Assembly: GCF_009014635.1 (NCBI RefSeq)
Contig: NZ_BKCF01000001.1
Coordinates: 682,001 to 746,000, forward strand
Direction: 5' to 3'
DNA from: Patiriisocius marinistellae
Lineage (GTDB): Bacteria; Bacteroidota; Bacteroidia; Flavobacteriales; Flavobacteriaceae
DNA length: 64,000 bases
Under the pieces are notes generated by a model that did no database searches, had not been told where the DNA came from, and was given only the letters and a program-made list of their open reading frames with translations. Positions 27,061 to 42,008 of the stretch are shown piece by piece. Every line of letters begins with the position of its first letter. Position 1 is the first letter of the stretch. A program made the translations under genes and the position numbers.

Positions 27061-28197
27061 TTAAATCAAAAATTGTAACAAGTATCCAAGAATAGCCCCA
27101 GCAATTACAACCCAAATTACTGAAAGCTTCTTAAAGCCAAACACTAATATTGCAGAAATAATAGCAATAATAACTGCAGGCCATGCAACAAGTGTTTCAC
27201 GAGCCATAGTTAGAAGTACAGAAATCATCACCGCAACCGCAGCAATATTTACGCTATCTAAAAACCCTCTAAGTAATTTAGATTTTTGCATTATAGGTAC
27301 TAGAGGATTTAATATCCAAACAAATAAAAACGACGGAAGAAAAATTCCTAGTGTTGCTCCAATGGCTCCCCAAAACCCTCCTAATTGATACCCAATAAAT
27401 GTTGCCGTTGATAATACAGGACCGGGCGTAAACTGTCCTATTCCTATTGCCTCAATAAGTGCTGGGCGGGATAGTAGTCCCGTGGTGACAAGTTCGGCAT
27501 CAAGATAAGCAAAGAGGACGTAACCGCTACCGTAGAGAATACTACCTACTTTTAAAAACGTCCAAAAAATATTTAATGAAGTAAGCTTAGTTGCAACTTC
27601 TGTAGAAAATAAAAATAGAAGAAAAGGAGAAATATTATTTACGGATGTATTGATTACTTTGCTTTTCAGAAAAAAATATAACATCCCTAAAAGACCACCT
27701 GCGAGAAGTGCAAAAATCTCGTTGACACCATATAGGCTAGCCGCAAGGACAAGCAAACCAATGATTGCTAACTCCCAATTTTTAAGTGCCTTTTTTCCTA
27801 GTTTAAATATTGCCGAAGCTATAATCACTAAAACTGCTGGTTGAATTCCAGCAACAAAAGGTTTGATTTCTGGGAGTTCGCCATATTGGGTATACAACCA
27901 TGCGAGGATAAGTGTGATGATTACAGCTGGAAATACAAACGAAAACCCTGCAACAAAAAGGCCTTTTACGCCTGCGCGTTCGTGACCGCAATGCATGGTC
28001 ATCTCGGTAGAGTTTGGACCTGGAATTAGATTTGTAGCGCCTACAAGGTCTAGAAAATGCTGTCGCGTCATCCACTTGCGTTTAGTCACCACTTCATCTT
28101 CCATCATAGCAATATGTGCCGCAGGTCCACCAAATGCAAAAAAACCTAGTTTGAGGAATACTAATGATAATTCTTTTAAAGAATTTTTTGTAGACAT
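27061..28197 (-). CDS. chrA: Chromate transporter family protein (ChrA-like)
   Basis: The 378-residue protein has the two homologous CHR halves of the long form. The first half contains FLKLGFFAFGGPAAHIAMM (14-32) and GATNLIPGPNSTEM (about 53-66). The second contains FLKVGSILYGSGYVLFAYL (about 216-234) and IGIGQFTPGPVLSTATFIGY (about 252-271). Ten to twelve membrane segments are expected. ChrA exports chromate in resistant proteobacteria; in Bacteroidota the substrate may be sulfate or another oxyanion. It starts 4 bases before the stop region of the upstream exported protein gene, so the two probably share a transcript. Confidence 0.9.
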   Translation of the reverse strand: MSTKNSLKELSLVFLKLGFFAFGGPAAHIAMMEDEVVTKRKWMTRQHFLDLVGATNLIPGPNSTEMTMHCGHERAGVKGLFVAGFSFVFPAVIITLILAWLYTQYGELPEIKPFVAGIQPAVLVIIASAIFKLGKKALKNWELAIIGLLVLAASLYGVNEIFALLAGGLLGMLYFFLKSKVINTSVNNISPFLLFLFSTEVATKLTSLNIFWTFLKVGSILYGSGYVLFAYLDAELVTTGLLSRPALIEAIGIGQFTPGPVLSTATFIGYQLGGFWGAIGATLGIFLPSFLFVWILNPLVPIMQKSKLLRGFLDSVNIAAVAVMISVLLTMARETLVAWPAVIIAIISAILVFGFKKLSVIWVVIAGAILGYLLQFLI

Positions 28198-28200
28198 TTA

Positions 28201-28908
28201 TTAACCAGCTTTTAAAATGTCTGTCCCTAAATACTTGTCGTCTTTATTATAAAACCAAGCTCTAATTGCGGGTATTTTAATATCGTTTATGACAGTTTCT
28301 TTATTTAAAAGTATATACTCGCCAGTATCTTTTCCTTTTGCGTTAGGATCGCCTTTAAAAAACTGGTAAGTTTCCATTGCGTACGTTTTTGGGTTAAAAT
28401 AGAAATACCAAACATCGCTCCCCACAGCTTCATCGTAAGTTGCCTTTAATACTAAATACTCTTTGCCTTTAAAAGTTTTTCTTTCTACAGTTTCAAAAAT
28501 TTGGGTGCCAGGATCCTTTAGTTTCATAGGGAGCCCATATAGATAAGTATAGTAATTTTTTAAAAAGCCAGCAGTTTCACAAGGAGTTCTGCGTTGTGGT
28601 TCGCTAATAGAATCTGTAATACTTGTAGTGCATTTTCCTTTTTTAATGCTATGCATTGTTTGTATAGAGTCTCGAGTAGCAACAACTTTAAAATACTCAT
28701 TAGAAAGATCAATATCAATAATACTAACTCTTGGCGAGCCTCCTGGGGTTTCCATGGTAACATTAAGTGTGCCTTTAAATGTATCCCAATTATTGTGGGG
28801 GTCGTGATATGCAATAGCTTTATCAAGTAGTTGTTCGCCTGTAAGTTGTTGTGCGATCATGCCTTCGGAAATGAATAACAACAAAGCTATTAGATATGTA
28901 TATTTCAT
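28201..28908 (-). CDS. Exported protein, probably DUF6503 family
   Basis: Starting at the ATG at 28908 gives 235 residues with a signal peptide (MKYTYLIALLLFISEGMIAQ); the upstream extension to 29001 lacks signal character and runs into the terminator of the neighbouring gene. The mature protein, with LLDKAIAYHDPHNNWDTFKG near 12-31 of the mature chain and YFYFNPKTYAMETYQFF later, has the half-barrel pattern of LolA-like or DUF6503 periplasmic proteins. The LolA resemblance suggests lipid or lipoprotein binding, but no function is established. It is directly upstream of chrA. Confidence 0.75.
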   Translation of the reverse strand: MKYTYLIALLLFISEGMIAQQLTGEQLLDKAIAYHDPHNNWDTFKGTLNVTMETPGGSPRVSIIDIDLSNEYFKVVATRDSIQTMHSIKKGKCTTSITDSISEPQRRTPCETAGFLKNYYTYLYGLPMKLKDPGTQIFETVERKTFKGKEYLVLKATYDEAVGSDVWYFYFNPKTYAMETYQFFKGDPNAKGKDTGEYILLNKETVINDIKIPAIRAWFYNKDDKYLGTDILKAG

Positions 28909-28983
28909 AATGATGGTTTGTTTAGTTGAAAATAAAGTTAGCAAATTTCTGAAGAAAAAATAACAGAAGTCACATTTCCGAAG

Positions 28984-29019
28984 AAAAAAAGCACCTTTCA
29001 ATATGGAGAAAGGTGCTTT
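28984..29019 (-). terminator. Intrinsic terminator after the PiT gene
   Basis: Arms AAAGCACCTTTC and GAAAGGTGCTTT (12 bases, perfect) with an 8-base loop are followed on the minus strand by seven T. It separates the phosphate transporter from the DUF6503/chrA pair. Confidence 0.88.
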
Positions 29020-29046
29020 ATGATTTTTAGATATTATATTTAAAAA

Positions 29047-31293
29047 TTATTGTTTTTGATAACTTGAATAATATTCGTCCATTAGATTCATAATTCCATT
29101 TACAAGATCTTTCGTCTCTAATAATATATTGAAGTAAAGACTTGTGTTTTTTGGGCTAGACTCTTCTGTGCGAGTTCTCTCTATTTGTTTTTGGATTTTA
29201 TCATTAATTTTTCCTAATATTTCTTGTTTGCGTGAAAGAACGTAACTTATTCTTTCAAATTTACCGCTATCAAATACGTTAGCAATTTCGGTAAGTACAG
29301 AAGTTAGCTCTTGGTCCATTTCCTGAAGATCTTTTATCTGGCTAAAACGTAATTTTTTGTGATTGTTATTTACGTGCTTGTAACTCTTTTTTGTAATAAA
29401 ATCAAGTGATTGCGCCATATCTGTTAAATGACCTAAAATGGTGATATAGAAATTACTACCACGTACGCTTGTGTCGTCAAGATTTTTAATTAAGTAGAAA
29501 ATATTGTCTCTTAAATCTTCAATTTCTGCTTCTAACTTGTCAACCCCTTTTTTACTTTTCTTTAGCTTAGAGCTGTCTTCTTTAGCAAGGCCCTTAAGAA
29601 CATCTGAGTATATTTTATTAGTTCTAGAAACTACGTTTGAAATGTTATCAGCGCTTTCAGTAATAATCCCTTGAACAGTACTACTTTCAGACTTTTTCAA
29701 CGTTTTAGGGTCGATTGAAGTTGTATTTTTCTTCTTGTGAGACAAATAATTTCTTACTAATAAAATTGCTGTAATTAACAATAGAATAGGTACCATCACT
29801 GCTTTATTCCAACTAATTAAAAATACAACTGTACCAGCTGCTATTAATGCGCCAAATGCAGTGAAAAACCATCCCCCAATAACATTAAGAACACCTGCTA
29901 CACGGTATACAGCACTTTCTCTACCCCAAGCTCTATCTGCAAGAGACGTTCCCATAGCTACCATAAAGGTTACATATGTTGTTGATAATGGTAATTTCAT
30001 TGAGGTTGCGACAGATATTAAAACTCCAGCTACCATTAAATTTACTGATGCTCTAATCATATCAAAAGCAGGAGCGTCAATACTCTGGTCTTTTGTAAGA
30101 AGTTTATCCTCAGGCTTTTGAAAACTAGCATTGATTCTCTCTTGCATAGTTTTTGGGACTATAACGCCTATAGCACTTGAAAGTAATGTTGATCCTCTTA
30201 CAATTCCCCTAGAAAGCATATTAGGTTCAAATTTTTCATGAGTATTTCCTTGACGTGATAGGCTTAGTTCAGTTTCGGCTACTGTTTTTGCTTTTTTAGA
30301 AAACCATAATGTTGCAACCATAATTCCTCCTGCTATAAATAGTAGGAACGGCTCTGCTGGCATTTTCTTTTCTAAGATTTCCATAGAGAAATCTGTTGCA
30401 GCTACTCCAGATATTGACCAAGCTTCATATGAGTGGTATGCAGCCATAGGAACACCAATAAAGTTTACCAAATCATTACCAGAAAATGCAAGAGCTAATC
30501 CAAAAGTCCCTACTGCGATTACTACAAGTAAAATACTTTTTTTAGTTAATTTTTGAAATGCATATGAGAAAAGGGTGAAAAACACAAACCCTACTACCAT
30601 TATAACATACTCATTTCCTTCAAGAAAGCCTTGTAGTTCCTTATAAAACGGAGACCCTTTAAGTCCTTTCATAAATATAAAATAAACGATAGCAGATAAG
30701 GCTAAACCTCCAAATAGAGCGCCAAAATTCTTCATTTTCTTTTCATAATGGAACGTAAAAATTCTACGGGAAATCCATTGAACAATTGCCCCTACAGTAA
30801 AGGCAATAACGACAGACATTAGTATACCACTTATAATCTCAATGGCTTTCTCAGTGTTAATGTAGTTGCCTATATCTGCGATTGTAACATCATCAGCTGC
30901 ACTAATTTTTATTAAAGAAATTACGATTGCCGCACCTAATAGATTAAATACAATAGAAACCGTTGTAGAAGTAGGAAGTCCAAGTGTATTAAAGAAATCT
31001 AATAACAATATGTCTGTAATCATTACAGCCATAAAAATCATCATAATTTCATCGAAGGTAAACATTGCGGGAACAAAAATTCCTTTTCGTGCGACTTCCA
31101 TCATACCACTAGAATAGACAGCCCCAATGAAAATTCCTAAACTAGCGACAATCATAATTGTTCGTAATGATATGGCTTTTGATCCAATCGCTGAGTTTAA
31201 GAAGTTAATTGCGTCATTACTAACTCCAACAACAATATCTGCAACTGCAAGTATTGTTAATGCTACTAACATTAATAAATAAATGTTATCCAT
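29047..31293 (-). CDS. PiT-family inorganic phosphate transporter with C-terminal PhoU-like domain
   Basis: A 748-residue inner-membrane protein. Residues 1-165 and about 370-520 hold the paired PiT signature regions, including DIVVGVSNDAINFLNSAIGS and the matching GLPTSTTVSIVFN and LPLSTTYVTFMVAMGTSLA loops. About ten helices lie between. Residues about 545-748 are soluble, helical and coiled-coil-like, resembling PhoU (NISNVVSRTNKIYSDVLKG onward), which may couple transport to phosphate signalling. I chose the second in-frame ATG (MDNIYLLML) because the predicted transcript start lies at the first ATG (31311). The Pho-box-like site at 31342-31359 precedes it, and a porin gene lies upstream on the same strand. 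Confidence 0.9.
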   Translation of the reverse strand: MDNIYLLMLVALTILAVADIVVGVSNDAINFLNSAIGSKAISLRTIMIVASLGIFIGAVYSSGMMEVARKGIFVPAMFTFDEIMMIFMAVMITDILLLDFFNTLGLPTSTTVSIVFNLLGAAIVISLIKISAADDVTIADIGNYINTEKAIEIISGILMSVVIAFTVGAIVQWISRRIFTFHYEKKMKNFGALFGGLALSAIVYFIFMKGLKGSPFYKELQGFLEGNEYVIMVVGFVFFTLFSYAFQKLTKKSILLVVIAVGTFGLALAFSGNDLVNFIGVPMAAYHSYEAWSISGVAATDFSMEILEKKMPAEPFLLFIAGGIMVATLWFSKKAKTVAETELSLSRQGNTHEKFEPNMLSRGIVRGSTLLSSAIGVIVPKTMQERINASFQKPEDKLLTKDQSIDAPAFDMIRASVNLMVAGVLISVATSMKLPLSTTYVTFMVAMGTSLADRAWGRESAVYRVAGVLNVIGGWFFTAFGALIAAGTVVFLISWNKAVMVPILLLITAILLVRNYLSHKKKNTTSIDPKTLKKSESSTVQGIITESADNISNVVSRTNKIYSDVLKGLAKEDSSKLKKSKKGVDKLEAEIEDLRDNIFYLIKNLDDTSVRGSNFYITILGHLTDMAQSLDFITKKSYKHVNNNHKKLRFSQIKDLQEMDQELTSVLTEIANVFDSGKFERISYVLSRKQEILGKINDKIQKQIERTRTEESSPKNTSLYFNILLETKDLVNGIMNLMDEYYSSYQKQ

Positions 31294-31315
31294 AATAAAT
31301 TGTGTAATCATGATG

Positions 31316-31359
31316 CAAATGTCTCAATTTTGCTGAGTCCATTTGTTATCAAATTGTTA
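31316..31359 (-). promoter_or_regulatory. Pho-box-like direct repeat and promoter of the PiT gene
   Basis: Read on the minus strand, TAACAAT-TTGA-TAACAAA (31359-31342) is a 7-4-7 direct repeat with an 11-base period. Exactly 18 bases later comes GACATTTG (31323-31316), one mismatch from the -7 consensus TAnnTTTG. The same geometry occurs before the porin and the beta-helix lipoprotein. The 11-base period is that of the E. coli PhoB box. PhoB-type control is inference. Confidence 0.65.
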
Positions 31360-32565
31360 TTAAAAATGTAAATCAAATCCAGTTCTAAGCATAATATTAT
31401 CATCATCACTATCCTTAGTACCGTAGCTAACATCTGCTTGTATTTTAAGTTTATGTCCTACCACGTATTTTGAAACTCCTAAGGTATATTGATTTTGAGA
31501 ATCTCTGCCTGTAATATCGTCAAAATTTAAAGTTGTGCAACGGCCTGTAACTTCTATATTGTTTTTTAACAAATAACTCAACTGCATATTTATAGAGTTA
31601 CCTACTCTTACAATATCTCCAGTTTCTGTACCATCTTCATTTATTGCTATAGGAGCATCTGCGTCACGTTTTGCATATTCCCCCATAAAAGCAAGTCCTT
31701 TATATTTAAACATTGCATCTGCAAAGAAAGTTGTAATATCTGTTTCATATAAAGAAATACCGTCATCGAGAAACATGTAATTTCCTAAATTACTTCTGTT
31801 TTTCACAGCATCTTTATTATAGTCGTATGTGAGACCTACCATAAGCTTTGGTAACTTTTCTCGCTTTAAATCTCCTTGAGTATAATCTCCTTTTGAGCTG
31901 AAATTTCCGAAGGGCAAAAATTCTAGTCGACCTGTATATTGTAGTCCTCCTTCATTACCTTGTGTGATGTTTCTTCCTTCCCCTTGAGAGATAGCAATCT
32001 TTTCTCTAATAGTGAAGTCACCTCCAAGATTTGCATGATGACGTAATTGTATGCCTATATCACGGTCAATATTAAAGTTACTATTCAATAACGATCTGTC
32101 TATTAATTGCAAGTTTGCTGATGATATAACGCGTTCTACGTTTCCAGGTAACTTTGTTTGGCCCGCCCAAAGTTCAAAGTTTTCATAAAAATTCCACATT
32201 ATAACGGCATCTAAAAGAATGCGAGGTGTATTGCGATTAAATTGATTTGCTCCAGAGACATCTCTATTAGATAGTCCTATTTCAATTTTATATTTTAATT
32301 GAGGATTGTATGCAAAACCACTAAACTTTAGACGAGCTCTACGTATTGAAAAATCTTGTTCTGGTTTTCCATACTGCTCGTCGTCATGATCCCATACTGT
32401 GTTGAATCTGCCTTGAATACGAGGCGCAAATTTTACGCTAAAAGAACTGTCTTTTGCTACAAAATTTATTAAACCTTTTCCAAATTTGCTGTCACTAATG
32501 TTTTGAGCATTTGTAGAAAAACAAAAGAGAAGCAATGCTGCAAATAGCAGAGAACTTAATTTCAT
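31360..32565 (-). CDS. Phosphate-selective porin OprO/OprP family
   Basis: With the start at the ATG at 32565 the protein has 401 residues and a signal peptide (MKLSSLLFAALLLFCFSTNAQ); a TTG-started longer frame adds a non-signal stretch. The mature protein is a 16-18 strand beta-barrel of the porin O/P family: FSVKFAPRIQGRFNTVWD, DFSIRRARLKFSGFAYNPQLKYKIE split over about 70-95, ELWAGQTKLPGNVERV near 135-150, and an aromatic end GFDLHF typical of outer-membrane insertion. It precedes the PiT transporter on the same strand with 66 bases between, and has the same operator type, so the pair should form an outer/inner-membrane phosphate route. Confidence 0.9.
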   Translation of the reverse strand: MKLSSLLFAALLLFCFSTNAQNISDSKFGKGLINFVAKDSSFSVKFAPRIQGRFNTVWDHDDEQYGKPEQDFSIRRARLKFSGFAYNPQLKYKIEIGLSNRDVSGANQFNRNTPRILLDAVIMWNFYENFELWAGQTKLPGNVERVISSANLQLIDRSLLNSNFNIDRDIGIQLRHHANLGGDFTIREKIAISQGEGRNITQGNEGGLQYTGRLEFLPFGNFSSKGDYTQGDLKREKLPKLMVGLTYDYNKDAVKNRSNLGNYMFLDDGISLYETDITTFFADAMFKYKGLAFMGEYAKRDADAPIAINEDGTETGDIVRVGNSINMQLSYLLKNNIEVTGRCTTLNFDDITGRDSQNQYTLGVSKYVVGHKLKIQADVSYGTKDSDDDNIMLRTGFDLHF

Positions 32566-32596
32566 TATGAAAATATTTTTTAGTTTTTGTCGGTGG

Positions 32597-32640
32597 CAAA
32601 ATTCTACAATGTTTGTCAATCAAATGTTAACCTAAGATTA
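32597..32640 (-). promoter_or_regulatory. Pho-box-like direct repeat and promoter of the porin gene
   Basis: On the minus strand TAATCTT-AGGT-TAACATT (32640-32623) is followed after exactly 18 bases by GAATTTTG (32604-32597), one mismatch from TAnnTTTG. TTTG at 32624-32621 could act as a -33 box. This matches the PiT and lipoprotein promoters in spacing. Confidence 0.65.
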
Positions 32641-32672
32641 AGGATATGTTTTCTTATTTGATCAAGAAACAT

Positions 32673-32699
32673 AAAAAAAGGCTACCCAATGGGTAGCCT
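32673..32699 (-). terminator. Intrinsic terminator between divergent porin and MORN genes
   Basis: Arms AGGCTACCC and GGGTAGCCT (9 bases, perfect) around a 3-base loop are followed by seven T on the minus strand. No annotated gene ends here. It must end either a short RNA from the intergenic space or a leader transcript heading for the porin. Confidence 0.8.
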
Positions 32700-32860
32700 C
32701 AACGTTAAAACCTAGTCGACAAAAACTAAACGATTTTCATACGTTGTTGTCATAAGACAATACAAATAACAGGTATGTATGTACCGTTTAAGTAACCTCA
32801 ATATTATCAAATCGTTAAAAAAGCACATTGTTGTAATTTAAAACATAAAAGCCATTAAGA
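32700..32860 (-). ncRNA. Possible small RNA or minipeptide transcript ending at the orphan terminator
   Basis: The minus strand upstream of the strong terminator carries no long frame, but a 13-codon frame (ATG at 32753, TAG at 32714-32712; MTTTYENRLVFVD) ends 12 bases before the hairpin. About 18 bases beyond the approximate 5' end lies a perfect repeat TAACATT-AAAT-TAACATT (32895-32878), the same box as in the phosphate promoters and oriented this way. No good -7 element is found at the expected 18-base distance, so the transcript start is a guess. Confidence 0.35.
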
Positions 32861-32877
32861 CAGTTAGTTATGTTCTC

Positions 32878-32895
32878 AATGTTAATTTAATGTTA
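32878..32895 (-). promoter_or_regulatory. Perfect Pho-box-like direct repeat in the divergent intergenic region
   Basis: AATGTTA-ATTT-AATGTTA on the plus strand (TAACATT twice on the minus strand) has the 7-4-7 layout of the other three sites, without mismatch between its halves. Its orientation points to the minus strand, toward the orphan terminator and porin, but it could also affect the plus-strand gene at 32966. Confidence 0.5.
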
Positions 32896-32902
32896 TGTAA
32901 AC

Positions 32903-32934
32903 GTTTCATAATAGTAAAATATATTGTATGTTTG
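32903..32934 (+). promoter_or_regulatory. Promoter of the MORN-like gene
   Basis: TATGTTTG at 32927-32934 is an exact -7 match, and TTTC at 32904-32907 lies 19 bases upstream near the -33 position. The start codon follows 31 bases later. Confidence 0.6.
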
Positions 32935-32965
32935 TATAGTGATTATTAATTTAAATGCCTTGGTT

Positions 32966-33355
32966 ATGAAAAAATTGTTTCTTTTAGTTGCTGTATTGTT
33001 TGCAACAAATGTGATGATAGCACAAGATTGTTCAAAAGCTTGTGATATGAAAAAAGTAAAGAATAGTTATGTACAGGTTGGCGATTTAATTAAGGCAACA
33101 TTGTATCATGAAAATGGAACTGTTGCTCAAACGGGTTTTTACACTGCAGATAATAAACTTGAAGGTACTTGGACAAGCTATAATACAAAAGGAGATATAA
33201 CAGCTACAGCTGAATATAAAAAAGGAAATAAAGTGGGAGTTTGGTCTTTTTTTGATGGAAATATCAAAAAAGAAGTTACTTACTCAAATTCAAAAATTGC
33301 GAAAGTAGATACTTGGGAGATTAAAGATACAAGAGTAGTGTCAAATAAACCCTAG
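32966..33355 (+). CDS. Exported MORN/YwqK-like repeat protein
   Basis: From the ATG at 32966 the product is 129 residues with a signal peptide (MKKLFLLVAVLFATNVMIAQ); the frame opens earlier but those codons fall in the promoter. The mature part carries repeats of the YwqK/MORN type: HENGTVAQTGFYTADNKLEGTW, SYNTKGDITATAEYKKGNKVGVW and FFDGNIKKEVTYSNSKI, each about 22 residues, split here by natural boundaries. Such proteins are common in Flavobacteriaceae with no known role. The gene ends at a shared, two-way terminator and is divergent from the phosphate porin. Confidence 0.8.
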   Translation: MKKLFLLVAVLFATNVMIAQDCSKACDMKKVKNSYVQVGDLIKATLYHENGTVAQTGFYTADNKLEGTWTSYNTKGDITATAEYKKGNKVGVWSFFDGNIKKEVTYSNSKIAKVDTWEIKDTRVVSNKP

Positions 33356-33372
33356 TTTTTTATAGCATTTTT

Positions 33373-33414
33373 AAAATAGAAAGAGCCTCGAATTTTCGAG
33401 GCTCTTTCTATTTT
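33373..33414. terminator. Bidirectional intrinsic terminator
   Basis: A 19-base perfect stem (GAAAGAGCCTCGA paired with TCGAGGCTCTTTC, extended by AAAATA/TATTTT) and a 4-base loop lie between two convergent genes. T-runs flank it in both directions. Confidence 0.9.
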
Positions 33415-33432
33415 AAACTTTAAATAATTTTA

Positions 33433-36258
33433 TTAAAAACGTATGCTGTAACCAAGACTTATATCTTGACCTTTATTCCACTTAGAATAGATTTGATCTT
33501 GTCCACCAAATGATTGATAAACACTTTCAATATCATCATCTAATAAATTATCAAATTTTAATGATATAGTTGAATTTTTTTTCTCTCCAAGACTTTTTGA
33601 AATATTTAGTTTCACGTTGTGAAATGGTAGGGTGAAAACATCGGCTACATCTCCAGCACCTACAATTTGTAAGGTTTTACCTTGAGAGTTGTAAAATATA
33701 CCGCCATTCCAGCCATTATCTTCATAATTAAAACCTACATTTATTAAGTATGGTGATTGCCCTTGTAATTGACGAGTATCATCTAAACTCTCACCTTCTC
33801 GTAAATTGTCTAGTCTACCTTCTTTTTCATCTTCACTATACTCTTGTCTTGATTCTATTATAGATAAATTTACATTAAAATTTAAATTTTCAAGTCCACC
33901 AATAAAGCCTAGATTTTTTCTCACTTCAATTTCTCCTCCAAAAACACTAGCGTCACCAAGATTCAAAGGAGTATATTGGCCGTATGCTCTTCGTATAAAT
34001 GAAAGTTCAATAGGATCTTTAAATGATTTATAAAATCCACTTAATGCAAAAAAATCACCAGATTCACCGTATTTTTCAAATCGTAAATCAAAATTATTTA
34101 TATAGGTAGGCTGTAAATCTATATTTCCAATAAAAGTGGTACTACTTATTGGGTCAAAAATTTCAGCCAATGAAGCTTCTTTAAAAGAAGGTCTTGCAGT
34201 GGTCCGAGCAAAAGAAGTTCTAATTTTTTTATCACCATCTTCATTAAGGTCAAAAATTAAATTTACAGAAGGAAATAAGTCTGATGTATTAATAATTTCA
34301 GTATCATTAAATGCCGTTCCGTCCTGTCTTTCTCCAGTATAATTTAAATTGAATTGCTCAAATCTAAGCCCTACTATAGAATTTAGCCAATCGGTAATTT
34401 TAAATTCCTCTGAAATATAAGCTGAAGCAATAGAAATGTCAGAATCATAGGAGTCTGAATCATTTGAGTCTTGTCTAATGAAGAAGCCACTATTTGTATC
34501 TGGATTATAAATATTTTCATCATCAAGTATTTGATCTGGATCCCCATTTAATGTAGCCGATGGGAAATTTAAAAATGGAATAGAAAACTTTAAAACTTCA
34601 AAAGTTCGATTTTTAAAAGTATATCCTCCACCAAATTTAGTTTTAGCATCATAACTAAATAAAGAATGCTTTTTTTCAATATCCAGTTTTCCAGCTAAAT
34701 TTATTTCTTCTAAATCTCTAAAAAATCTAGAAGGTACTCCAGACTCACTAGGTTCGATAGTGTAAGTTTCTTCTCCAGTTTCAGAATCTGTTGATACTCT
34801 AAAAGGTGTTACCCTAAAATCTTTATCTTCTATTCTTGCTAATGTCGGAGACAAGGCCCACTCCACATTCCAATCACTTTCAGTACCAAAAGTATGCTTA
34901 CCATTTAAAAGAGCATTAGTTATAGACCTTTGAGTATAAATTAAGTTATCCTTAATAATGTTATTACTACTAATAATAAAATTGCTTTGTCTAAATATGG
35001 AAGCTTGAGATTCTCCATTTTGAACATGTAAAACATTGAAGCGATATTTTGATTTTTCAGATTTTAGAGTTAATCCTGCTAATGCACTAATTAGAACATT
35101 ATTTATACCTGCCTCTCCATTTTGAGTTCGATCTGCAAGTAGTTGAAAATTAGACTTGTCTGCTTCATCTTTTCTAAAGATTTGTCCATCAATATATTCA
35201 TCATAGTAGGTGGTTTCATTACGATAAGAAACAGATGCTAGGTATCCTAGTTTTTTTTCTCCAATTTCATATTGATTACCTGCAGTAGCTGAAAAATTAT
35301 AATTTAGAAAGCTAGACTCACGTTGGGCTGCCAAGTTTTTTTCAAATCTTTGAGTAATTAAAGATGCGGCCTCACCATTTTGCTGTGGTAATGGTACTAC
35401 TTGGTGTGATACTAGTGGATTGTCTCTTAGTCCGTCGTCGAAGCCTAAGAAATCCGTACTGCTCTTTTCTGAAACTAAATAATTGTTTTTAAAATGAAAG
35501 TCTGAATTGTATGTCGCTCCTACAGATACACTATACTCCTCTCTAGTAGGAATATCTTTGGTTACAATATCAATTACACCACCTGTAAAATCTGCAGGTT
35601 GGTCTGCTGTGGCAGCTTTTATTACAATGATGTTTTCAAGGATTTGAGTGGGGAAAATGTCAAGCTGAAGTGTATTCCTATCAGGATCTAAACCAGGAAC
35701 GTCAACACCATTTAAAATTGATTTAGTGTATCTGTCTCCTAAACCACGTACATAAACAAATTTACCTCCTTGGATGGATACTCCAGGAACATTTTTAACT
35801 GCACTTGCAATATCACTAGCTCCACTTTTCTTTATAGTTTCAATAGAAAGGCCATCTAATAAATTCACTGAATTTTTTTGAAAACTAAGCACTGCTGCCT
35901 CAGTATTTTGACGAGCTGTAGTTGTAATAATAACTTCATCTAATTGACCTGCACTTGCATTAAGAGTAACATCAGTATTTGTGATTTCGCCGTTTTTAAT
36001 AACTACATCTGTTATCTCTTTGGTTTGATATCCTACAAAAGAATAAACAATAGTATAAGAACCTGGCTCAAGGTCTAAAGAATATTTACCATCGAAATCT
36101 GTGGTAGTTCCAGTTTGAGTGTCTTTAACAATAATATTTGCAAATGGAAGTACATCATTAAACTCTCCATCATTTATTATACCAGCTAAACCTGAAGTTT
36201 GGCTAAAAGTTACCTGAAAAAATAGAAAGCTAATAAATAAAAATATAAAATTTTTCAT
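33433..36258 (-). CDS. TonB-dependent receptor with carboxypeptidase-regulatory N-terminal domain
   Basis: The 941-residue protein has a signal peptide (MKNFIFLFISFLFFQVTFSQ) and a CarboxypepD_reg-like beta domain at about 22-105 (PFANIIVKDTQTGTTTDFDG; YTIVYSFVGYQTKEI). A plug follows at about 118-230 (SGASDIASAVKNVPGVSIQ, FVYVRGLGDRYTKSILNG, ADFTGGVIDIVTK) and then a long barrel ending DISLGYSIRF. It is not a SusC with a SusD partner; its partner is the beta-helix lipoprotein 96 bases upstream on the same strand. The upstream gene carries Pho-box-like sites, so uptake of a phosphorus compound is my inference; the substrate is unknown. Confidence 0.9.
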   Translation of the reverse strand: MKNFIFLFISFLFFQVTFSQTSGLAGIINDGEFNDVLPFANIIVKDTQTGTTTDFDGKYSLDLEPGSYTIVYSFVGYQTKEITDVVIKNGEITNTDVTLNASAGQLDEVIITTTARQNTEAAVLSFQKNSVNLLDGLSIETIKKSGASDIASAVKNVPGVSIQGGKFVYVRGLGDRYTKSILNGVDVPGLDPDRNTLQLDIFPTQILENIIVIKAATADQPADFTGGVIDIVTKDIPTREEYSVSVGATYNSDFHFKNNYLVSEKSSTDFLGFDDGLRDNPLVSHQVVPLPQQNGEAASLITQRFEKNLAAQRESSFLNYNFSATAGNQYEIGEKKLGYLASVSYRNETTYYDEYIDGQIFRKDEADKSNFQLLADRTQNGEAGINNVLISALAGLTLKSEKSKYRFNVLHVQNGESQASIFRQSNFIISSNNIIKDNLIYTQRSITNALLNGKHTFGTESDWNVEWALSPTLARIEDKDFRVTPFRVSTDSETGEETYTIEPSESGVPSRFFRDLEEINLAGKLDIEKKHSLFSYDAKTKFGGGYTFKNRTFEVLKFSIPFLNFPSATLNGDPDQILDDENIYNPDTNSGFFIRQDSNDSDSYDSDISIASAYISEEFKITDWLNSIVGLRFEQFNLNYTGERQDGTAFNDTEIINTSDLFPSVNLIFDLNEDGDKKIRTSFARTTARPSFKEASLAEIFDPISSTTFIGNIDLQPTYINNFDLRFEKYGESGDFFALSGFYKSFKDPIELSFIRRAYGQYTPLNLGDASVFGGEIEVRKNLGFIGGLENLNFNVNLSIIESRQEYSEDEKEGRLDNLREGESLDDTRQLQGQSPYLINVGFNYEDNGWNGGIFYNSQGKTLQIVGAGDVADVFTLPFHNVKLNISKSLGEKKNSTISLKFDNLLDDDIESVYQSFGGQDQIYSKWNKGQDISLGYSIRF

Positions 36259-36279
36259 GTCTTTTTTTTATGAAACAAA

Positions 36280-36304
36280 CTCGCCTTGTAATTTACAAGA
36301 CGAG
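36280..36304 (-). terminator. Hairpin between lipoprotein and TonB receptor genes
   Basis: On the minus strand CTCGTCTTGTA and TTACAAGGCGAG form a stem of about 11-12 pairs with one G-T wobble, followed by TTTGTTTC. The T-run is weak, so it may lower, rather than stop, readthrough from the lipoprotein into the receptor gene, or protect the upstream mRNA end. Confidence 0.5.
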
Positions 36305-36354
36305 CATGTTGGCTAATTGAAGTCAATTATTATTTTGAAAATTAAGTGTGTAGC

Positions 36355-37632
36355 TTAAAAAGCTCCTTTTGCACTTGCAAATGTCCAAGAGAAAACATTT
36401 GTATTAGCACCACCAGTTGTACCGGTAGTAGTCCAAGTAGCAGCTCTTTCAGAAAATGTAGGGCTAAGTATGATTAAGTCTTCAAAAACATCATTATTAG
36501 AATCCATATCATCACAGTTTGCAATACATCCACCTTTTTCAACAAAAGCAGTATTATCATCCCCATTAAGAACCCAGTTTTGAAAAACTATTTTACCATC
36601 TAAAAAGTTTTGAGAAACTTCATTATTATCTAATTCAACATCAGCAGAAGATTTAAATCCGGTCGCATATACGTTTCTAAGAGTACCCATAGCTCCGTCC
36701 CTTAAATCTGCATATTCACCATTTTCTGTTACGGAATTTCCTATTAATGTTAAACCATCTATTGTAAACATTCCTTCTAAAGAACCAGCAGGGCCATCAA
36801 TTTCAAGACTATGGTCAGAAATATCACCAGCAATTACTAAAGAGTTAGAAATTGTTCCAGAATAAGCTTCGTCAATATCAAGACCATCATCTCCTTGAGC
36901 CCATACTAATAGATTAGAACTATTTACAGAACCTCCAAACCATTCAATACCATCATCAACATTACCAACAACTTCAATGTTTGAAATTACTGTTCCAGCA
37001 CCAACACCTCCTAAAGTAAGACCGTTAATTTCATTTCCTTCTCCAATCAAAGTTCCTCCGTGACGTATTGATACGTAGTTTAAGCTTCCAGAATTGTCAG
37101 CATCATTAGACCCACCATAAAGACCATTTGTGTCACTAGCAGGGATACCTTCGATTTGGTTTTCTGTAGCATCTCCAGATAAAGAAGCCTTAGCGCGACC
37201 TAAAACAATAAGACCTCCCCAAAGACCTCTATCATTTTCAGTTAAGTTAGTTCCTACTGTTTGGCCAAGAGCAATATTGTCAGTGCTTGATGTAAAGATA
37301 ATAGGAGCGCTAGATGTTCCATTAGCTTGTATTTTACCACCTCTAGCGATAATTAAAACAGAGGCGTTAGCTTCTTGCCCTGGTAATGCTTTAACAATAG
37401 TTCCAGCTTCAATTGTTAATGTTGCACCATCTACAACAGTAACACGACCATCAAGAGTCCATATCTCATCACTAGTTAAAGTCATATCATTAGTTATTTG
37501 ACCAGTAAGTGTTGCGTCAATCATACCTGGATCATCATCTACAGGAATAGGGTCGTTATCATCACTGCCACAGCTAACAATAAATAAAGACAATGCTATA
37601 ATAGCAATTTGAGATAGAAAGAATTTTTTCAT
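36355..37632 (-). CDS. Surface lipoprotein with right-handed beta-helix
   Basis: The 425-residue product has a lipoprotein signal (MKKFFLSQIAIIALSLFIVSC, Cys21) followed by acidic GSDDNDPIPVDDD, a likely surface-export signal. From about 40 onward the sequence has parallel beta-helix rungs: TVVDGATLTIEAGTIV, GGKIQANGTSSAPIIFTS, IEVVGNVDDGIEWFGGSVNS, DGLDIDEAYSGTISNSLVIA. The C-terminus contains a Cys pair in GGCIANCDDMDSNNDVF, which may bind calcium or form a disulfide. It is transcribed before the TonB receptor and would be the surface capture partner, in the place SusD takes in SusCD. The promoter bears two Pho-box-like repeats. Confidence 0.85.
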   Translation of the reverse strand: MKKFFLSQIAIIALSLFIVSCGSDDNDPIPVDDDPGMIDATLTGQITNDMTLTSDEIWTLDGRVTVVDGATLTIEAGTIVKALPGQEANASVLIIARGGKIQANGTSSAPIIFTSSTDNIALGQTVGTNLTENDRGLWGGLIVLGRAKASLSGDATENQIEGIPASDTNGLYGGSNDADNSGSLNYVSIRHGGTLIGEGNEINGLTLGGVGAGTVISNIEVVGNVDDGIEWFGGSVNSSNLLVWAQGDDGLDIDEAYSGTISNSLVIAGDISDHSLEIDGPAGSLEGMFTIDGLTLIGNSVTENGEYADLRDGAMGTLRNVYATGFKSSADVELDNNEVSQNFLDGKIVFQNWVLNGDDNTAFVEKGGCIANCDDMDSNNDVFEDLIILSPTFSERAATWTTTGTTGGANTNVFSWTFASAKGAF

Positions 37633-37666
37633 TTTTAAGTAATTTATTAGAGTTATAATTGAGATG

Positions 37667-37754
37667 CAAATAAACTCAGATTTAAAAGAGCTATGGTTAT
37701 TAGAATGTTACCCTTGTATTAGTATTTTGTAAGCTCAATGTTAAATAAATGTTA
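37667..37754 (-). promoter_or_regulatory. Promoter with two Pho-box-like repeats for the lipoprotein-TonB pair
   Basis: On the minus strand the proximal repeat TAACATT-CTAA-TAACCAT (37710-37693) is followed after exactly 18 bases by TTTATTTG (37674-37667), one mismatch from TAnnTTTG. A distal perfect repeat TAACATT-TATT-TAACATT lies at 37754-37737, 44 bases (four 11-base units) further upstream, so both would face the same side of the helix. This is the strongest version of the shared phosphate-locus operator. Confidence 0.7.
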
Positions 37755-37959
37755 CGTAGATTTATTTAAATAAAGTGTCATAAAATTAATTTCGATTAAC
37801 TCAATCTGCGTTAAGTGAAGATTATTATAAAAACTTTTTTTTACTAACACACTATATTAATAGGTATCTTGCAGTACAATTATGTGAGTAAACTGTATGA
37901 ATAATCTGTTTGCTTTTTTAATAGATATATAGATTTCCTTACTTAAAAAATCTTTGAAT

Positions 37960-39306
37960 ATGATGCAATGGGAGCAATTACTTTCACTTAGAAAACAAGG
38001 TGTCACCAATAAAAGGTTGCGTATTGAAGAAGATGATACTAGGTTAGGCTTTGAAGTCGATTACGATCGCATAATTTTCTCAAGTGCTTTTAGAAGCCTT
38101 CAAGATAAAACTCAAGTAATTCCGTTTTCAAAAACCTCTTTTGTTCATACTCGTTTAACACACAGTCTAGAAGTTTCAGTAGTGGGGCGCTCTTTGGGGC
38201 GAGTTGCTGGTAAAGCAATTTTAGAAAAACATCCTTCATTAAAAGCAGTGCATGGTTATCATTTTAATGATTTTGGCGCAATCGTAGCCGCAGCAGCATT
38301 GGCTCACGATATAGGAAATCCACCTTTTGGGCATAGTGGAGAAAAAGCAATAGGAGATTATTTTTCTAACGGAAATGGAACTCGTTTTAAAAATGCGTTG
38401 TCTAAAAAAGAATATCAAGATCTTATAGACTTTGAAGGTAACGCTAACGGTTTTAAAATTCTAACCGAAACTAAAAATGGTGTTGACGGAGGTTTACGAT
38501 TAACTTATGCAACCTTGGGTGCGTTTATGAAATATCCAAAAGAGTCACTCCCTAAAAAACCAACAAACCAAATAGCCGATAAAAAATACGGAGTGTTTCA
38601 AGGCGATAAAAAATTTTTTGAAGAAGTTGCCCAAGAATTAGGATTACTAAAACGTGGAACACATGAAGATGTAAGTTATTCAAGACACCCTTTAGCTTTT
38701 CTTGTAGAAGCTGCCGATGATATTTGCTACACAATAATTGATTTTGAAGATGGTATAAATCTTGGGCTCATAAACGAAGAAGTAGCTCTAGAGTATTTAA
38801 TTACGCTAGTAAAAGATAAAATAAATACAGAAAAGTATAATGGTTTGACGCAAGCTTCAGATAGATTGGCGTATTTGCGATCACTTGCAATTAATACGCT
38901 CATCCAAGAGGCAACAAAACAATTTTTAGAGAATGAAGAAGCTATTTTGAAAGGAGAATTTTCTCAATCATTAATGGATAAATGTGCTTTTAAAGCACAA
39001 ATAGATGATATAATTAAGATAAGTATCGAAAAAGTATATCAAAGCAATGAAGTAATTGAGAAAGAAATTGCAGGGTATCATATGATAGCAACTTTGTTAG
39101 ATGCATTTACTACAGCTTTTGAAAACTTATATAGTGATCGTAAGGAACGTCATTATGATCGACTAATCCTTCATCATTTCAAACACAATATTGTCGAAGA
39201 CTCATCTGTGTATCAATATTTAATGCAATGCTGCAATTTTGTATCTAGATTGACAGATGGCAATGCTTTGAAAATTTTTCAAAAATTAATTGGAAATTTA
39301 GAATAA
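37960..39306 (+). CDS. dgt: dNTP triphosphohydrolase (dGTPase family)
   Basis: Starting at the ATG at 37960 gives 448 residues; a TTG two codons earlier is a less likely start. The HD domain ligands are visible in SFVHTRLTHSLEVSVVGRS (about 61-79), ALAHDIGNPPFGHSGE (about 113-128) and EAADDICYTIIDFED (about 248-262). The N-terminal DTRLGFEVDYDRIIFSSAFR is typical of the dGTPase family. The enzyme cleaves dNTPs to nucleosides and tripolyphosphate, helping to balance pools in the cytoplasm. It is a single gene, divergent from the lipoprotein. Confidence 0.93.
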   Translation: MMQWEQLLSLRKQGVTNKRLRIEEDDTRLGFEVDYDRIIFSSAFRSLQDKTQVIPFSKTSFVHTRLTHSLEVSVVGRSLGRVAGKAILEKHPSLKAVHGYHFNDFGAIVAAAALAHDIGNPPFGHSGEKAIGDYFSNGNGTRFKNALSKKEYQDLIDFEGNANGFKILTETKNGVDGGLRLTYATLGAFMKYPKESLPKKPTNQIADKKYGVFQGDKKFFEEVAQELGLLKRGTHEDVSYSRHPLAFLVEAADDICYTIIDFEDGINLGLINEEVALEYLITLVKDKINTEKYNGLTQASDRLAYLRSLAINTLIQEATKQFLENEEAILKGEFSQSLMDKCAFKAQIDDIIKISIEKVYQSNEVIEKEIAGYHMIATLLDAFTTAFENLYSDRKERHYDRLILHHFKHNIVEDSSVYQYLMQCCNFVSRLTDGNALKIFQKLIGNLE

Positions 39307-39324
39307 TTTAAAGATGCGGTGTTA

Positions 39325-39348
39325 AATTTATTGTTTTGACAATAAATT
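39325..39348 (+). terminator. AT-rich inverted repeat after dgt
   Basis: Arms AATTTATTG and CAATAAATT (9 bases, perfect) with a 6-base loop are followed by GTTTGGTTTTT. This may be a weak terminator for dgt or an operator just before the M36 protease gene. Confidence 0.4.
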
Positions 39349-39398
39349 GTTTGGTTTTTAGTTACTTTCGACAAATAGGATAAATCTCAATAATAAAT

Positions 39399-42008
39399 AT
39401 GAAAAAAGCACTATTACTCATTGCTTGTTTAACCTTTGGTTTTATACAGGCACAAGACTATTCACAAATTATTAAATCTTACTTAGGAGTTAATCGCTCA
39501 CAATTAGGATTGCAGCCACAGGATATTGAGAATCTCAATGTAAACTCTCATAGTTTTTCAAAAAGTCTATCAGCTGAAAACGTTTATGTAACACAATTAA
39601 TTAACGGCATTCCTGTCGTAAATTCAATCTCTTCATTTGTTATAAAAGGAGGAGAAGTAAATTATGCAAAAGTAGGGTTTGTAGTTAATGCAAATCAAAA
39701 AGTTAATACTACTACAGCATCAATTTCTGCAAGTCAAGCTATTAATAGTGCGGCTTCAATACTTGGTGTGTCAAGCCCATCAGGTCTTCAGGTTCTTGAA
39801 ACAGTATCTTCAAATTCTTTCATTTTCAATAATGGATCTATATCTCAAGATAATATTCCTGTTAAATTAGTGTATGAATTAAACGAGAACAATACATTAA
39901 GACTAGCTTGGGATTTAAGTATTTATTATCTAGACGGTAGCCATTATTATAGTGTTCGAGTTGATGCTATTAGTGGAGATATTATTTCAAAAAATGACTG
40001 GGTTGTAAGTTGTACATTTGGTGAAAGACCTCACGATCATGTTAAAAAACAATCATTTTTAGGTGAAAGTGTTTTATTTGAATCAAATGCAATGGAAGTA
40101 ACTTCTGCTGGAGGAGCAGTATATAGAGTCTTTCCTTTGCCTACAGAAAGCCCTAATCATGGAACTGATCAATTAGTTAGTGACCCGGCAAATGCTGTGG
40201 CTTCTCCTTTTGGATGGCATGATAATGATGGTGTTGCTGGAGCAGAATTTACAATTACACGTGGTAATAATGTAATAGCAAGAGATGATATAGATGGAAA
40301 TAATACAGGAGGTCTTTCTCCTGATGGAGGTGCAACGTTAACGTTCGATTTTCCTTATCAATTTGATACAGCTCCAGTAAATATGTTAGATGCTGCAACG
40401 ACTAATTTATTCTACTGGAATAACATTATGCATGACGTTTGGTATCAATATGGCTTTGATGAAGCTAGTGGAAACTTCCAAGATAATAATTACGGAAACG
40501 GAGGAAACGGGAATGACTTCGTAGATGCACAAGCACAAGATGGAGGAGGTACAAATAATGCAAACTTTTCAACACCACCAGATGGCAATAATGGAAGAAT
40601 GCAAATGTTTTTATGGAGTCCAGCTGGTCCAGCTGGTGATCCTTTAACAATTAATAATGGACCTTTAATGGGGGATTACACAGGAGTGCCTGCTACATTT
40701 GGTGCACCACTTCCTGAGGATATCGCAATAACTACAGACTTAGCTCTTGTTGTGGATGACAATGCAGGGGCTTCAGTTGATGAAAATGATGCTTGTGACA
40801 TGATTACAAATGGAACAGACCTTGATGGAAAAATTGTTGTTATTAGAAGAGGTGAGTGTGAATTTGGATTCAAAATACTTGCCGCAGAAAATGAAGGAGC
40901 AGTTGCGGTGATTATGGTAAATAATGTTCCAGATGCACCAATTGCAATGGGGCCTGGAGATTTTGGAGATCAAGTTACAATACCTGGAATAATGGTAAGT
41001 CAAGCAGATGGTGATGCAATAATTGCGGCTCTTTTAAATGGTGATACAGTTAATGGATCATTAATTAATGCAGGACCTTACAATATAGATGGAGATTTAG
41101 ATAATGGAATTATTGCCCATGAATATGGTCACGGAATTTCAAATAGACTTACAGGTGGACCTAGTGCTGCAGGATGTTTAGGTAACGAGGAGCAAATGGG
41201 CGAAGGCTGGAGTGATTGGTTTGGACTAATGTTAACTATGCAATCAACAGATACTCGTACAGATATTAATGGTATTGGTACTTATGCAACAGGAGAACCA
41301 ACTGATGGTGGCGGAATTAGAGAAGCTCCTTATAGTACAGACTTTTCAATCAATGATTATACTTACGACGATATTAAAGGAAACGTATCTGTACCTCACG
41401 GTGTAGGGTTTGTATGGGCAACAATGCTTTGGGAAATGACTTGGGATTTAGTAGATGAATACGGTTTTGATGCAGATTTTTATAATGGAACAGGCGGTAA
41501 CAATATCGCAATGCAATTAGTAATTGACGGTTTAAAATTACAAGGTTGTAACCCTGGATACATTGATGGTAGAGATGCAATTCTTGAAGCAGACTTGATA
41601 GCAAATGGGGGAGCAAACCAGTGTTTGATATGGGGAGCTTTTGCTCGTAGAGGTCTTGGAGTAAGCGCGTCACAAGGGAGTTCAAATAACTTGTTTGATG
41701 GTACTGAAGCTTATGATGAACCTACAACACCAAACTGCTTACTTGCTAATGGCGACAGAGGATCAATCGATGATAACATCATCATTTTCCCTAACCCTTC
41801 AAATGGACAAGTTAATATTAGAGCGGTACAAAATGGTGGTGCAGCGGTTGCAACAATTTACGACATCAATGGTAGAAAAATGATAACTCAAGATATTGAT
41901 TTGACTAGCACGGCAACATTAAATGCAAGCTCATTAAGCACGGGAGTATATATTCTTACTATTAACGGAAGTGATTACACACACACAACTAAATTAATTA
42001 TTGAATAA
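39399..42008 (+). CDS. Secreted M36 (fungalysin-like) metallopeptidase with PA and T9SS domains
   Basis: The 869-residue protein has a signal peptide (MKKALLLIACLTFGFIQAQ) and an FTP/PepSY-like propeptide at about 20-210. The M36 catalytic domain follows, with YWNNIMHDVWYQYGFDE near 340-356 and the zinc motif HEYGHGISNRLTGG near 571-584; a downstream glutamate lies in EGWSDWFGLML. A protease-associated (PA) domain is inserted at about 435-555 (GKIVVIRRGECEFGFKIL). The C-terminal 75 residues (IFPNPSNGQVNIR to TTKLIIE) form a type A T9SS sorting domain. It should be a secreted protein-degrading enzyme for nutrient gain. Its C-terminus is followed by a strong terminator. Confidence 0.93.
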   Translation: MKKALLLIACLTFGFIQAQDYSQIIKSYLGVNRSQLGLQPQDIENLNVNSHSFSKSLSAENVYVTQLINGIPVVNSISSFVIKGGEVNYAKVGFVVNANQKVNTTTASISASQAINSAASILGVSSPSGLQVLETVSSNSFIFNNGSISQDNIPVKLVYELNENNTLRLAWDLSIYYLDGSHYYSVRVDAISGDIISKNDWVVSCTFGERPHDHVKKQSFLGESVLFESNAMEVTSAGGAVYRVFPLPTESPNHGTDQLVSDPANAVASPFGWHDNDGVAGAEFTITRGNNVIARDDIDGNNTGGLSPDGGATLTFDFPYQFDTAPVNMLDAATTNLFYWNNIMHDVWYQYGFDEASGNFQDNNYGNGGNGNDFVDAQAQDGGGTNNANFSTPPDGNNGRMQMFLWSPAGPAGDPLTINNGPLMGDYTGVPATFGAPLPEDIAITTDLALVVDDNAGASVDENDACDMITNGTDLDGKIVVIRRGECEFGFKILAAENEGAVAVIMVNNVPDAPIAMGPGDFGDQVTIPGIMVSQADGDAIIAALLNGDTVNGSLINAGPYNIDGDLDNGIIAHEYGHGISNRLTGGPSAAGCLGNEEQMGEGWSDWFGLMLTMQSTDTRTDINGIGTYATGEPTDGGGIREAPYSTDFSINDYTYDDIKGNVSVPHGVGFVWATMLWEMTWDLVDEYGFDADFYNGTGGNNIAMQLVIDGLKLQGCNPGYIDGRDAILEADLIANGGANQCLIWGAFARRGLGVSASQGSSNNLFDGTEAYDEPTTPNCLLANGDRGSIDDNIIIFPNPSNGQVNIRAVQNGGAAVATIYDINGRKMITQDIDLTSTATLNASSLSTGVYILTINGSDYTHTTKLIIE

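Follow-up and report, generated by a model that had tools for sequence, protein, structure and literature searches.

What recognises the direct repeats that stand before a phosphate transporter gene, a porin gene and a secreted lipoprotein gene in the flavobacterium Patiriisocius marinistellae, and what else do they control? The three genes lie within a stretch of 64,000 nucleotides of contig NZ_BKCF01000001.1 (positions 682,001 to 746,000), hereafter the window, and an earlier note on this DNA had taken the repeats as a candidate Pho box, i.e., an operator for a PhoB-type activator. We find that a Pho box is the best explanation of the repeats, because of the matches to the full element in the genome, the ranking of promoter sites in the window and the gene specificity seen in other loci. 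A further promoter of like build lies just upstream of the porin gene, oprP, and would produce a candidate small RNA (sRNA) able to pair with the 5′ end of the oprP mRNA. Pho box and porin-pairing sRNA together are, in our view, very probably the best explanation of the whole.

All three promoters carry the TAACAWT-like repeats of 11-bp period that had been claimed for them, and the claimed 18-base gap between repeat pair and -7 element holds at each (positions are those of the window, and features lie on its minus strand unless stated otherwise). Before the PiT-type phosphate transporter gene (29047..31311; PF01384) the pair TAACAAT-TTGA-TAACAAA occupies 31359..31342, and the -7 element found by pattern match, GACATTTG, lies 18 bases past it at 31323..31316. 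At the oprO/P phosphate-selective porin gene (oprP; 31360..32562) the pair is TAATCTT-AGGT-TAACATT (32640..32623) and the -7 element GAATTTTG (32604..32597), while the secreted lipoprotein gene (36355..37632) has the proximal pair TAACATT-CTAA-TAACCAT at 37710..37693 and, 18 bases past it, TTTATTTG at 37674..37667. Pfam bears out the assignment of two of these genes to phosphate-uptake families (PiT, PF01384; Porin_O_P, PF07396) and gave no match for the lipoprotein, which the note had called a beta-helix lipoprotein. The second perfect copy reported for the lipoprotein promoter is also there, TAACATT-TATT-TAACATT at 37754..37737 (37737..37754 in ascending order), exactly 44 bases upstream of the proximal pair and by register count in phase with it.

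The fuller architecture is three 11-bp units, the last ending 7 bases before the -7 element. A third unit lies within the 18-base gap, as TGACAAA in oprP, where the three-unit box TAATCTT-AGGT-TAACATT-TGAT-TGACAAA spans 32612..32640, and as a TTTACA-like word in the lipoprotein promoters of most relatives. By relatives we mean, unless stated otherwise, 80 genomes of the family Flavobacteriaceae, with the best 30 loci of each search used; 72 of the 80 have a homologue of the lipoprotein at E 1e-20 or better. A de novo motif search in 27 of the 30 lipoprotein promoters (L070, L073 and L080 were left out) returned TAAt.Tt.A.tTAACat.aacTTTACA.tatg...GTTTcTTTGCa, with a log-likelihood ratio of 515 against 122-132 for three mononucleotide shuffles; it consists of three units in 11-bp register, the last of them 7 bases before the -7 element. 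Of 56 upstream words in 22 promoters, 41 were in register; six of these are unit 1, and the main positions are 33 and 44 bases ahead of unit 2.

A matrix was built from 22 lipoprotein promoters of relatives, none from this genome; L051, which is this genome, and L053, L059, L074 and L079, with misplaced or missing sites, were left out of the alignment. Over both strands of the window its three top sites were the lipoprotein promoter (16.7; box and -7 element together at 37667..37710, with a footprint in 22 relatives), the oprP box (16.3) and a site at 32807 (12.9), and the best plus-strand score was 11.4. The PiT promoter of the window scored -2.9, in keeping with a PiT box that has no recognisable third unit. 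Spacing is conserved as well. Scans for TAAC-Nk-TAAC with k from 4 to 12 peaked at k = 7 in the promoters of PiT (24/30, this genome and relatives), the lipoprotein (22/27) and, in reversed orientation, phoB (25/30), and a scan for AACA-Nk-AACA in oprP promoters peaked at the same value (61/80); no other k exceeded 2 in any of these sets. The N18 rule was kept in 17 of 30 PiT promoters, against at most 0 in 200 shuffle sets.

The earlier note had looked to the whole genome for matches before phosphate genes, an expectation that stands for the full element and falls for the bare repeat. The full pattern matched perfectly once, at PiT, and 12 times with up to two mismatches; these 12 include the three promoters that defined the pattern, and three of the nine independent matches stand before phosphate genes. 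One is 20 bases before an alkaline phosphatase gene (PhoA, PF00245), one is just before a MauG-like gene that is followed by a PhoX (PF05787) with a type IX secretion tail, and one is 69 bases before a response regulator gene with a histidine kinase gene behind it, i.e., a phoB-phoR pair. The neighbours of the other six look unrelated by reading. With up to three mismatches there were 93 matches, against 62 for the reversed control. For pstSCAB and phoU, which the note had also named, no pstS was matched in this genome at E 1e-30, and 10 of 199 family genomes have an orthologue; in four of these 10 loci the box stands before pstS, with scores of 29.7, 26.0, 22.0 and 12.8. One further public locus has the box at PstS, in the order small RNA, Porin_O_P, PstS-type binding protein, two permeases, ATPase, PhoU. 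When the genome was scanned with a model of the box built on sequence alone, the result was weak: 150 of 4252 candidates were scored, and among 16 matches at E up to 10 the first (the distal lipoprotein pair) and the third (oprP) lie in the window.

In 80 public loci, from a scan described below, scores above 12 bits fell before OprP (65/73), the lipoprotein (13/25), its TonB-dependent receptor (TBDT; 12/24) and PiT (10/55). Among the neighbouring genes none did so before dGTPase (0/25) or MORN-repeat genes (0/22), and before all other genes there were 5 of 95, namely two further porins, a PstS, a TBDT-like gene (by reading) and an open reading frame (ORF) behind an oprP promoter. In the relatives, 13 of 30 PiT promoters exceeded the 99th percentile of shuffles with the lipoprotein matrix, against 1 of 30 when reversed.

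This specificity bears on one alternative, that the repeats are the operator of another OmpR-family regulator for envelope transporters and have nothing to do with the phosphate regulator. OmpR-family regulators share a tandem winged-helix mode of binding, a first look at this genome gave 44 response-regulator candidates, and we infer that PhoB binds the repeats. However, matches concentrate on PhoA, PhoX, phoBR, PiT, OprP and pstS-phoU, and the neighbouring dGTPase and MORN genes score 0 of 47; we hold another regulator to be very unlikely. The candidate for the PhoB-type regulator is an OmpR/PhoB-family protein of 227 residues (PF00072, PF00486) whose nearest sequences in the PDB are RegX3, MtrA and RpaA, and it has a homologue at E 1e-70 in 77 of the 80 genomes.

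Published induction of related genes, together with the full-element matches and the relatives' pstS, supports the PhoB-type activator that the note had thought a good explanation. In Flavobacterium johnsoniae under low phosphate, fold changes were 9.91 for lipoprotein FII, 8.02 for its TBDT, 3.06 for PhoB, 9.58 for MauG and 12.50 for PhoX (PMC8115612), and the gene kinds of its PHO regulon are like those found here: FII lipoprotein, TBDT, PhoBR, MauG-PhoX and OprP. PafA, which had been suggested as a test gene, is a poor one since the same table gives no induction for it. FII and Fjoh_0541 both lie in the phoBR cluster of F. johnsoniae (PMC8115612). In our genome a PF04101 glycosyltransferase gene, of the Pfam family of Fjoh_0541, converges on the phoB-phoR pair, and in five relatives (G011, G025, G030, G031, G037) the coordinates place the lipoprotein homologue divergent from phoB and within 0.7 kb of it. 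From its TBDT and phoB neighbourhoods only, the window's lipoprotein is probably a relative of the F. johnsoniae phosphate-starvation lipoproteins FI and FII. The box-bearing genes of P. marinistellae would be expected to respond to phosphate.

The repeats have the 11-bp tandem period of a Pho box and precede core Pho genes and not unrelated ones, yet coverage is incomplete, and several results weigh against the reading. PhoA promoters carry the repeat in 7 of 30 relatives only, for which reason they were rejected as a general footprint, and 0 of 30 exceed the shuffle 99th percentile with the lipoprotein matrix. Six of the 10 pstS loci are without the box, some of them starting directly behind oprP. 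At phoB, 2 of 30 promoters exceed that percentile in the forward direction (5 of 30 in reverse), and this genome's own phoB (L101, L081) has a weaker forward pair instead of the reversed repeat. In F. johnsoniae, where it is part of the phoBR cluster, OprP was not induced, with a non-significant fold change of -1.3 (PMC8115612). Finally, TAACA-N6-TAACA alone is not enriched genome-wide, with 20 matches against 25 for the reversed control, and the bare repeat was rejected as a regulon marker on that count. This last result would suit the view that the repeats are mere AT-rich promoter sequence with a chance likeness, a view contradicted, as far as sequence can do so, by the footprints, the spacing scans and the gene specificity, and to which we give practically no credence. 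The E. coli-type unit CTGTCAT does not describe the box, whose consensus here is TTAAC/TTTACA.

At the relatives' phoB (L101-L130) the repeats point the other way in 25 of 30 cases, often about 40 bases before TATCTTT. This could reflect another activator geometry, autorepression or a divergent promoter; three very high reversed scores (L121, L122, L129) are taken as divergent lipoprotein promoters. A CAATGTTAATTTAATGTTT-like repeat is also seen in the intergenic region between lipoprotein and dGTPase genes of several relatives (e.g., L058, L063, L064, L069, L078), facing the presumed divergent dGTPase; dGTPase upstream regions nevertheless score 0 of 25 with the matrix.

The third-ranking site of the window, at 32807, has no gene directly behind it. 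This fourth promoter, at 32806..32763, reads TAATATT-GAGG-TTACTTA-AACG-GTACATA-N7-GTTATTTG, and some 62 bases past its -7 element comes an intrinsic terminator, GAGGCTACCCATTGGGTAGCCTT followed by T's (32678..32700). We therefore propose that an sRNA of about 85 nt, with predicted ends near 32758 and 32671, is transcribed from its own promoter and ends at that terminator, as far as sequence can tell. For 32672..32756 the folding energy is -26.5 kcal/mol (z -4.5), and the sequence TTTAGTTTTTGTCG (32717..32730), which we call the seed, comes to lie in the apical hairpin. Ten relatives' RNAs gave fold z-scores from -1.6 to -4.8, and their middle parts are not alike in all. A covariance model matched 32671..32772 with 77.3 bits, in a sequence that belongs to the model's own training set. 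Rfam 15 had no match at the gathering threshold, either in window positions 28000-40000 or in the loci of six relatives, and below-threshold matches in the window were taken as chance.

The element lies upstream of oprP in 27 of 30 loci, L194, L201 and L208 having no local seed. Among 20 further oprP loci it was present in 11 and lacking in 8, and in one, L368, a word search found neither seed nor target; the covariance model added 4 of 39 other family genomes, which brings the total to 42 of 80 Flavobacteriaceae genomes. The other 12 of the 16 matches in those 39 genomes (32-40 bits) were rejected, the seed words being absent or in unrelated sequence. A class-wide covariance search of 295 genomes, which scored 12 candidates per genome and so does not show absence outside the family, gave 10 matches in nine other genomes (37-42 bits) that have no seed and look like terminators; these too were rejected. 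A scan of public sequences for seed and target found at least 118 stretches, of which the 80 analysed have titles with Bacteroidia or flavobacterial names. All 80 have a terminator with a stem score of at least 9, a value reached by 12 of 240 shuffles and by none of 79 coding stretches. The gene that follows is an OprP relative in 73 (tblastn) and a Porin_O_P gene in six of the other seven (Pfam), i.e., in 79 of 80, the exception being L283 with a 32-codon ORF next to the RNA. In the sRNA promoter TAAT-N7-TTAC is kept in 51 of the 80, the spacing scan having its peak at k = 7 here too.

What would such an RNA act on? Its seed is the perfect complement of CGACAAAAACTAAA (32579..32592), at the predicted 5′ end of the oprP mRNA and hence the predicted target. 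The predicted mRNA start falls within a few bases of CGACAAAAAC, and in 76 of 80 loci the distance from the start of this word to the first ATG is 18-28 bases. In P. marinistellae the duplex is predicted to run on for 9 pairs, as far as the base that precedes the AUG. The 12-mer CGACAAAAACTA occurs exactly twice in the genome, in the seed and in the oprP leader; allowing up to one mismatch it is rare, with 29 occurrences against 124 of the reversed pattern. A target was found for 27 of 27 seeds, and eight further readable loci without the RNA are also without the target.

Seed and target covary, as judged by their sequences in 38 orthology-selected loci, one per genus except for two from the window's genus. 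Own leaders gave -20.7 kcal/mol and swapped leaders -17.6 (0 of 20000 permutations), and the 12 variants alone a p of 0.0001. At six flanking positions 178 pairs were counted against 152.2 (standard deviation 3.9), and over the 28 distinct combinations 126 against 104.0. The 12 pair positions hold 433 Watson-Crick, 14 G-U and 9 unpaired cells, with seven two-sided changes, one of which, in L362, falls inside the otherwise constant core (TTAGTTTTAGTCA with TGACTAAAACTAA). The target pattern behind these counts was widened after the variants had been viewed, so that they lean towards known variants.

One genome, G078, parts the RNA from its target. Its oprP locus (L194) has the target and no local RNA, the RNA lying 3.1 kb off behind a carbonic anhydrase gene and a sulfate permease gene on the opposite strand, and this RNA still matches the target over TAGTTTTTGTC and, after a bulge, ATCGATT. 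Such separation argues for action in trans. Conserved complementarity with compensatory changes and a gene separable from its target, the latter in this one genome, are both what an antisense sRNA would present.

The same locus helps to weigh the possibility that the RNA segment is simply the oprP leader and that read-through transcripts fold the seed onto it, as in attenuation, with no free sRNA. The arrangement would allow this, as seed and target lie on the same strand about 115-160 nt apart in 24 of 27 loci (213 nt in one, two being unmatched by the script). Against it, a terminator (80/80) and a complete second promoter stand between the two, the opposite-strand operon of G078 separates them with partial complementarity kept, and G014 keeps the RNA without a local porin; we regard attenuation as unlikely. 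Seed and target might instead be inverted copies of a DNA operator for some protein, with no pairing between RNAs. Inverted operator copies would co-evolve as well, and G-U-compatible changes on the target side are to be expected from an A/C-rich target. However, one copy belongs to a well-folding, terminator-ended RNA (z -4.5), where it occupies the apical hairpin of the consensus structure, and the other follows directly on the -7 element, where the transcript is predicted to begin; the likelihood that we leave to a DNA operator is slim.

A pairing sRNA remains our preferred account, and there are results that tell against it. Among the 80 loci selected by pattern, covariation in the flanks is weak (p 0.03 for all, 0.13 for distinct combinations), as the selection pattern fixes the core. 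The permutations take loci without control for relatedness, and the target-side G-U changes lose weight because composition alone would produce them. The own leader comes out as the best partner, alone or tied, for only five of the 38 RNAs, and some shuffled leaders do as well as the G000 duplex, at -24.7, or better (minimum -27.7). Target-like leaders, CGACAAATAAGCC and CGATAAAACTAAA, occur at L201 and L208, in genomes where our search, within its limits, did not find the RNA. The sRNA promoter is modest, with a matrix score above 10 in 28 of the 80 public loci. In G014 (L401) the RNA is kept though the porin has gone from the locus and PiT is next; a distant Porin_O_P-like gene elsewhere in that genome (L369) is without the target. 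It may be that the RNA of G014 has other targets, or that it is degenerating.

The period, spacing, gene specificity, footprints, terminator, complementarity, covariation and the separability of RNA and target in one genome can be read from the DNA itself, and suggest the following mechanism. The Pho box would consist of two or three tandem 11-bp units, each an 8-bp TTAACATT-like word with a 3-bp linker and the third often degenerate, and would end 7 bp before the Bacteroidota -7 element TAnnTTTG, a consensus confirmed in F. johnsoniae (PMC7366714). Under phosphate scarcity the PhoB-type regulator of the phoB-phoR pair probably binds the units head to tail and brings RNA polymerase to oprP, PiT, the lipoprotein-TBDT operon, MauG-PhoX, alkaline phosphatase and, in genomes that have it, pst-phoU. 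The like-built promoter just upstream of oprP would make an RNA of roughly 85 nt that ends at the terminator, and the apical hairpin of this RNA, UUUAGUUUUUGUCG, is predicted to pair with the first bases of the oprP mRNA, CGACAAAAACUAAA, about 20-30 nt from the start codon. Pairing there would most simply block initiation or alter the stability of the porin message. The RNA could act during the Pho response, as an incoherent feed-forward brake, or it could silence the porin while phosphate is plentiful; the brake is the natural guess because both promoters have one build. Either way it probably restrains porin translation, or in the simplest reading the translation or stability of the message, although the direction of the effect is a guess. 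A Pho-regulon sRNA of Flavobacteriaceae dedicated to one porin, the two adjacent genes each behind a three-unit Pho box and the RNA loop sealing the first nucleotides of the message, seems to us somewhat favoured.

How does this box compare with those already described? The PhoP box of Bacillus subtilis, TTAACA, has TT(A/T)ACA units about 11 bp apart on Gram-positive promoters, and the flavobacterial box is close to it, the promoters being what differs. In E. coli the Pho box has two 11-nt direct-repeat units, with seven conserved and four less conserved positions (PMC4415409), which agrees with the common 11-base period that the note had pointed to, and it too consists of tandem units near the promoter of phosphate genes. 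By contrast, the unit is TTAACATT here and CTGTCAT there, two or three units occur here, and the promoter has a Bacteroidota -7 element in place of a -10, the box ending 18 bases (two units) or 7 bases (three) before it. The cyanobacterial SphR box, CTTAACCT three times, likewise has 8-bp units with 3-bp linkers, at least three in tandem (PMC1906773), and the sequence here is nearly the same, e.g., TTTAACCAaacCTTTACTAgggCTTAACCT at sphX of PCC6803. It differs in phylum and promoter type, and SphR box positions vary widely from the gene start (PMC1906773). The main text of PMC8115612 uses neither 'Pho box' nor 'motif' and gives no operator. Putative Pho boxes have been reported in plcP clusters of marine heterotrophs, with flavobacteria among the organisms studied, and the parts of that paper available to us show no consensus (PMC4796936). 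A literature search, with most subscription journals outside its scope, turned up neither a consensus for a Pho box of Bacteroidota nor an RNA of this kind.

New here are a probable TTAAC-type Pho box on Bacteroidota promoters and a candidate family of RNAs that would belong with the porin sRNAs. The enterobacterial sRNAs MicF, MicC and OmrA/B repress porins by pairing with the 5′ region of the mRNA, as the candidate would. Unlike in those cases, the RNA gene usually adjoins its target, shares the operator type with it and pairs with the extreme 5′ end; we know of no sequence relation between them. To our knowledge few sRNA-target pairs are known in Bacteroidota, and adjacency to and covariation with its target make this one directly testable. 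With a Bacteroidota Pho box, lists of phosphate-starvation proteins from marine and soil flavobacteria become a readable regulon, which bears on phosphorus cycling, and the box in common with cyanobacteria suggests that the TTAAC type is widespread and the CTGTCAT of E. coli one version only. The sRNA would add a post-transcriptional layer to phosphate uptake. If correct, this would be an old and widespread incoherent feed-forward circuit that sets the amount of phosphate porin in the outer membrane, and a base-pairing sRNA of Bacteroidota whose target is legible from covariation alone.

Some smaller features accompany the locus. Elsewhere in the genome, a match with one mismatch at C1:7403 (L084) precedes three consecutive genes for small secreted proteins of 231, 235 and 241 aa without a Pfam match, possibly new Pho-regulon members or else chance. 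An extra exact pair that the note had missed, TAACATT-AAAT-TAACATT (TAACATTAAATTAACATT), stands at 32895..32878, upstream of both the sRNA promoter and a divergent gene (32966..33352, plus strand), which lies between TBDT and sRNA genes and whose product is small, secreted and matched by the MORN repeat (PF07661). The pair thus sits between this gene and the sRNA promoter, although none of 22 MORN-type genes scores for the box. MORN-like ORFs occur at the corresponding place in L399-L402. Between the convergent MORN and TBDT genes is a palindromic, terminator-like stretch (33375..33413), at which below-threshold Rfam matches were set aside as probably chance. The TBDT gene itself (33433..36258; Pfam) lies downstream of the lipoprotein gene, and a terminator-like hairpin between the two (36279..36305) could make the lipoprotein more abundant than the receptor.

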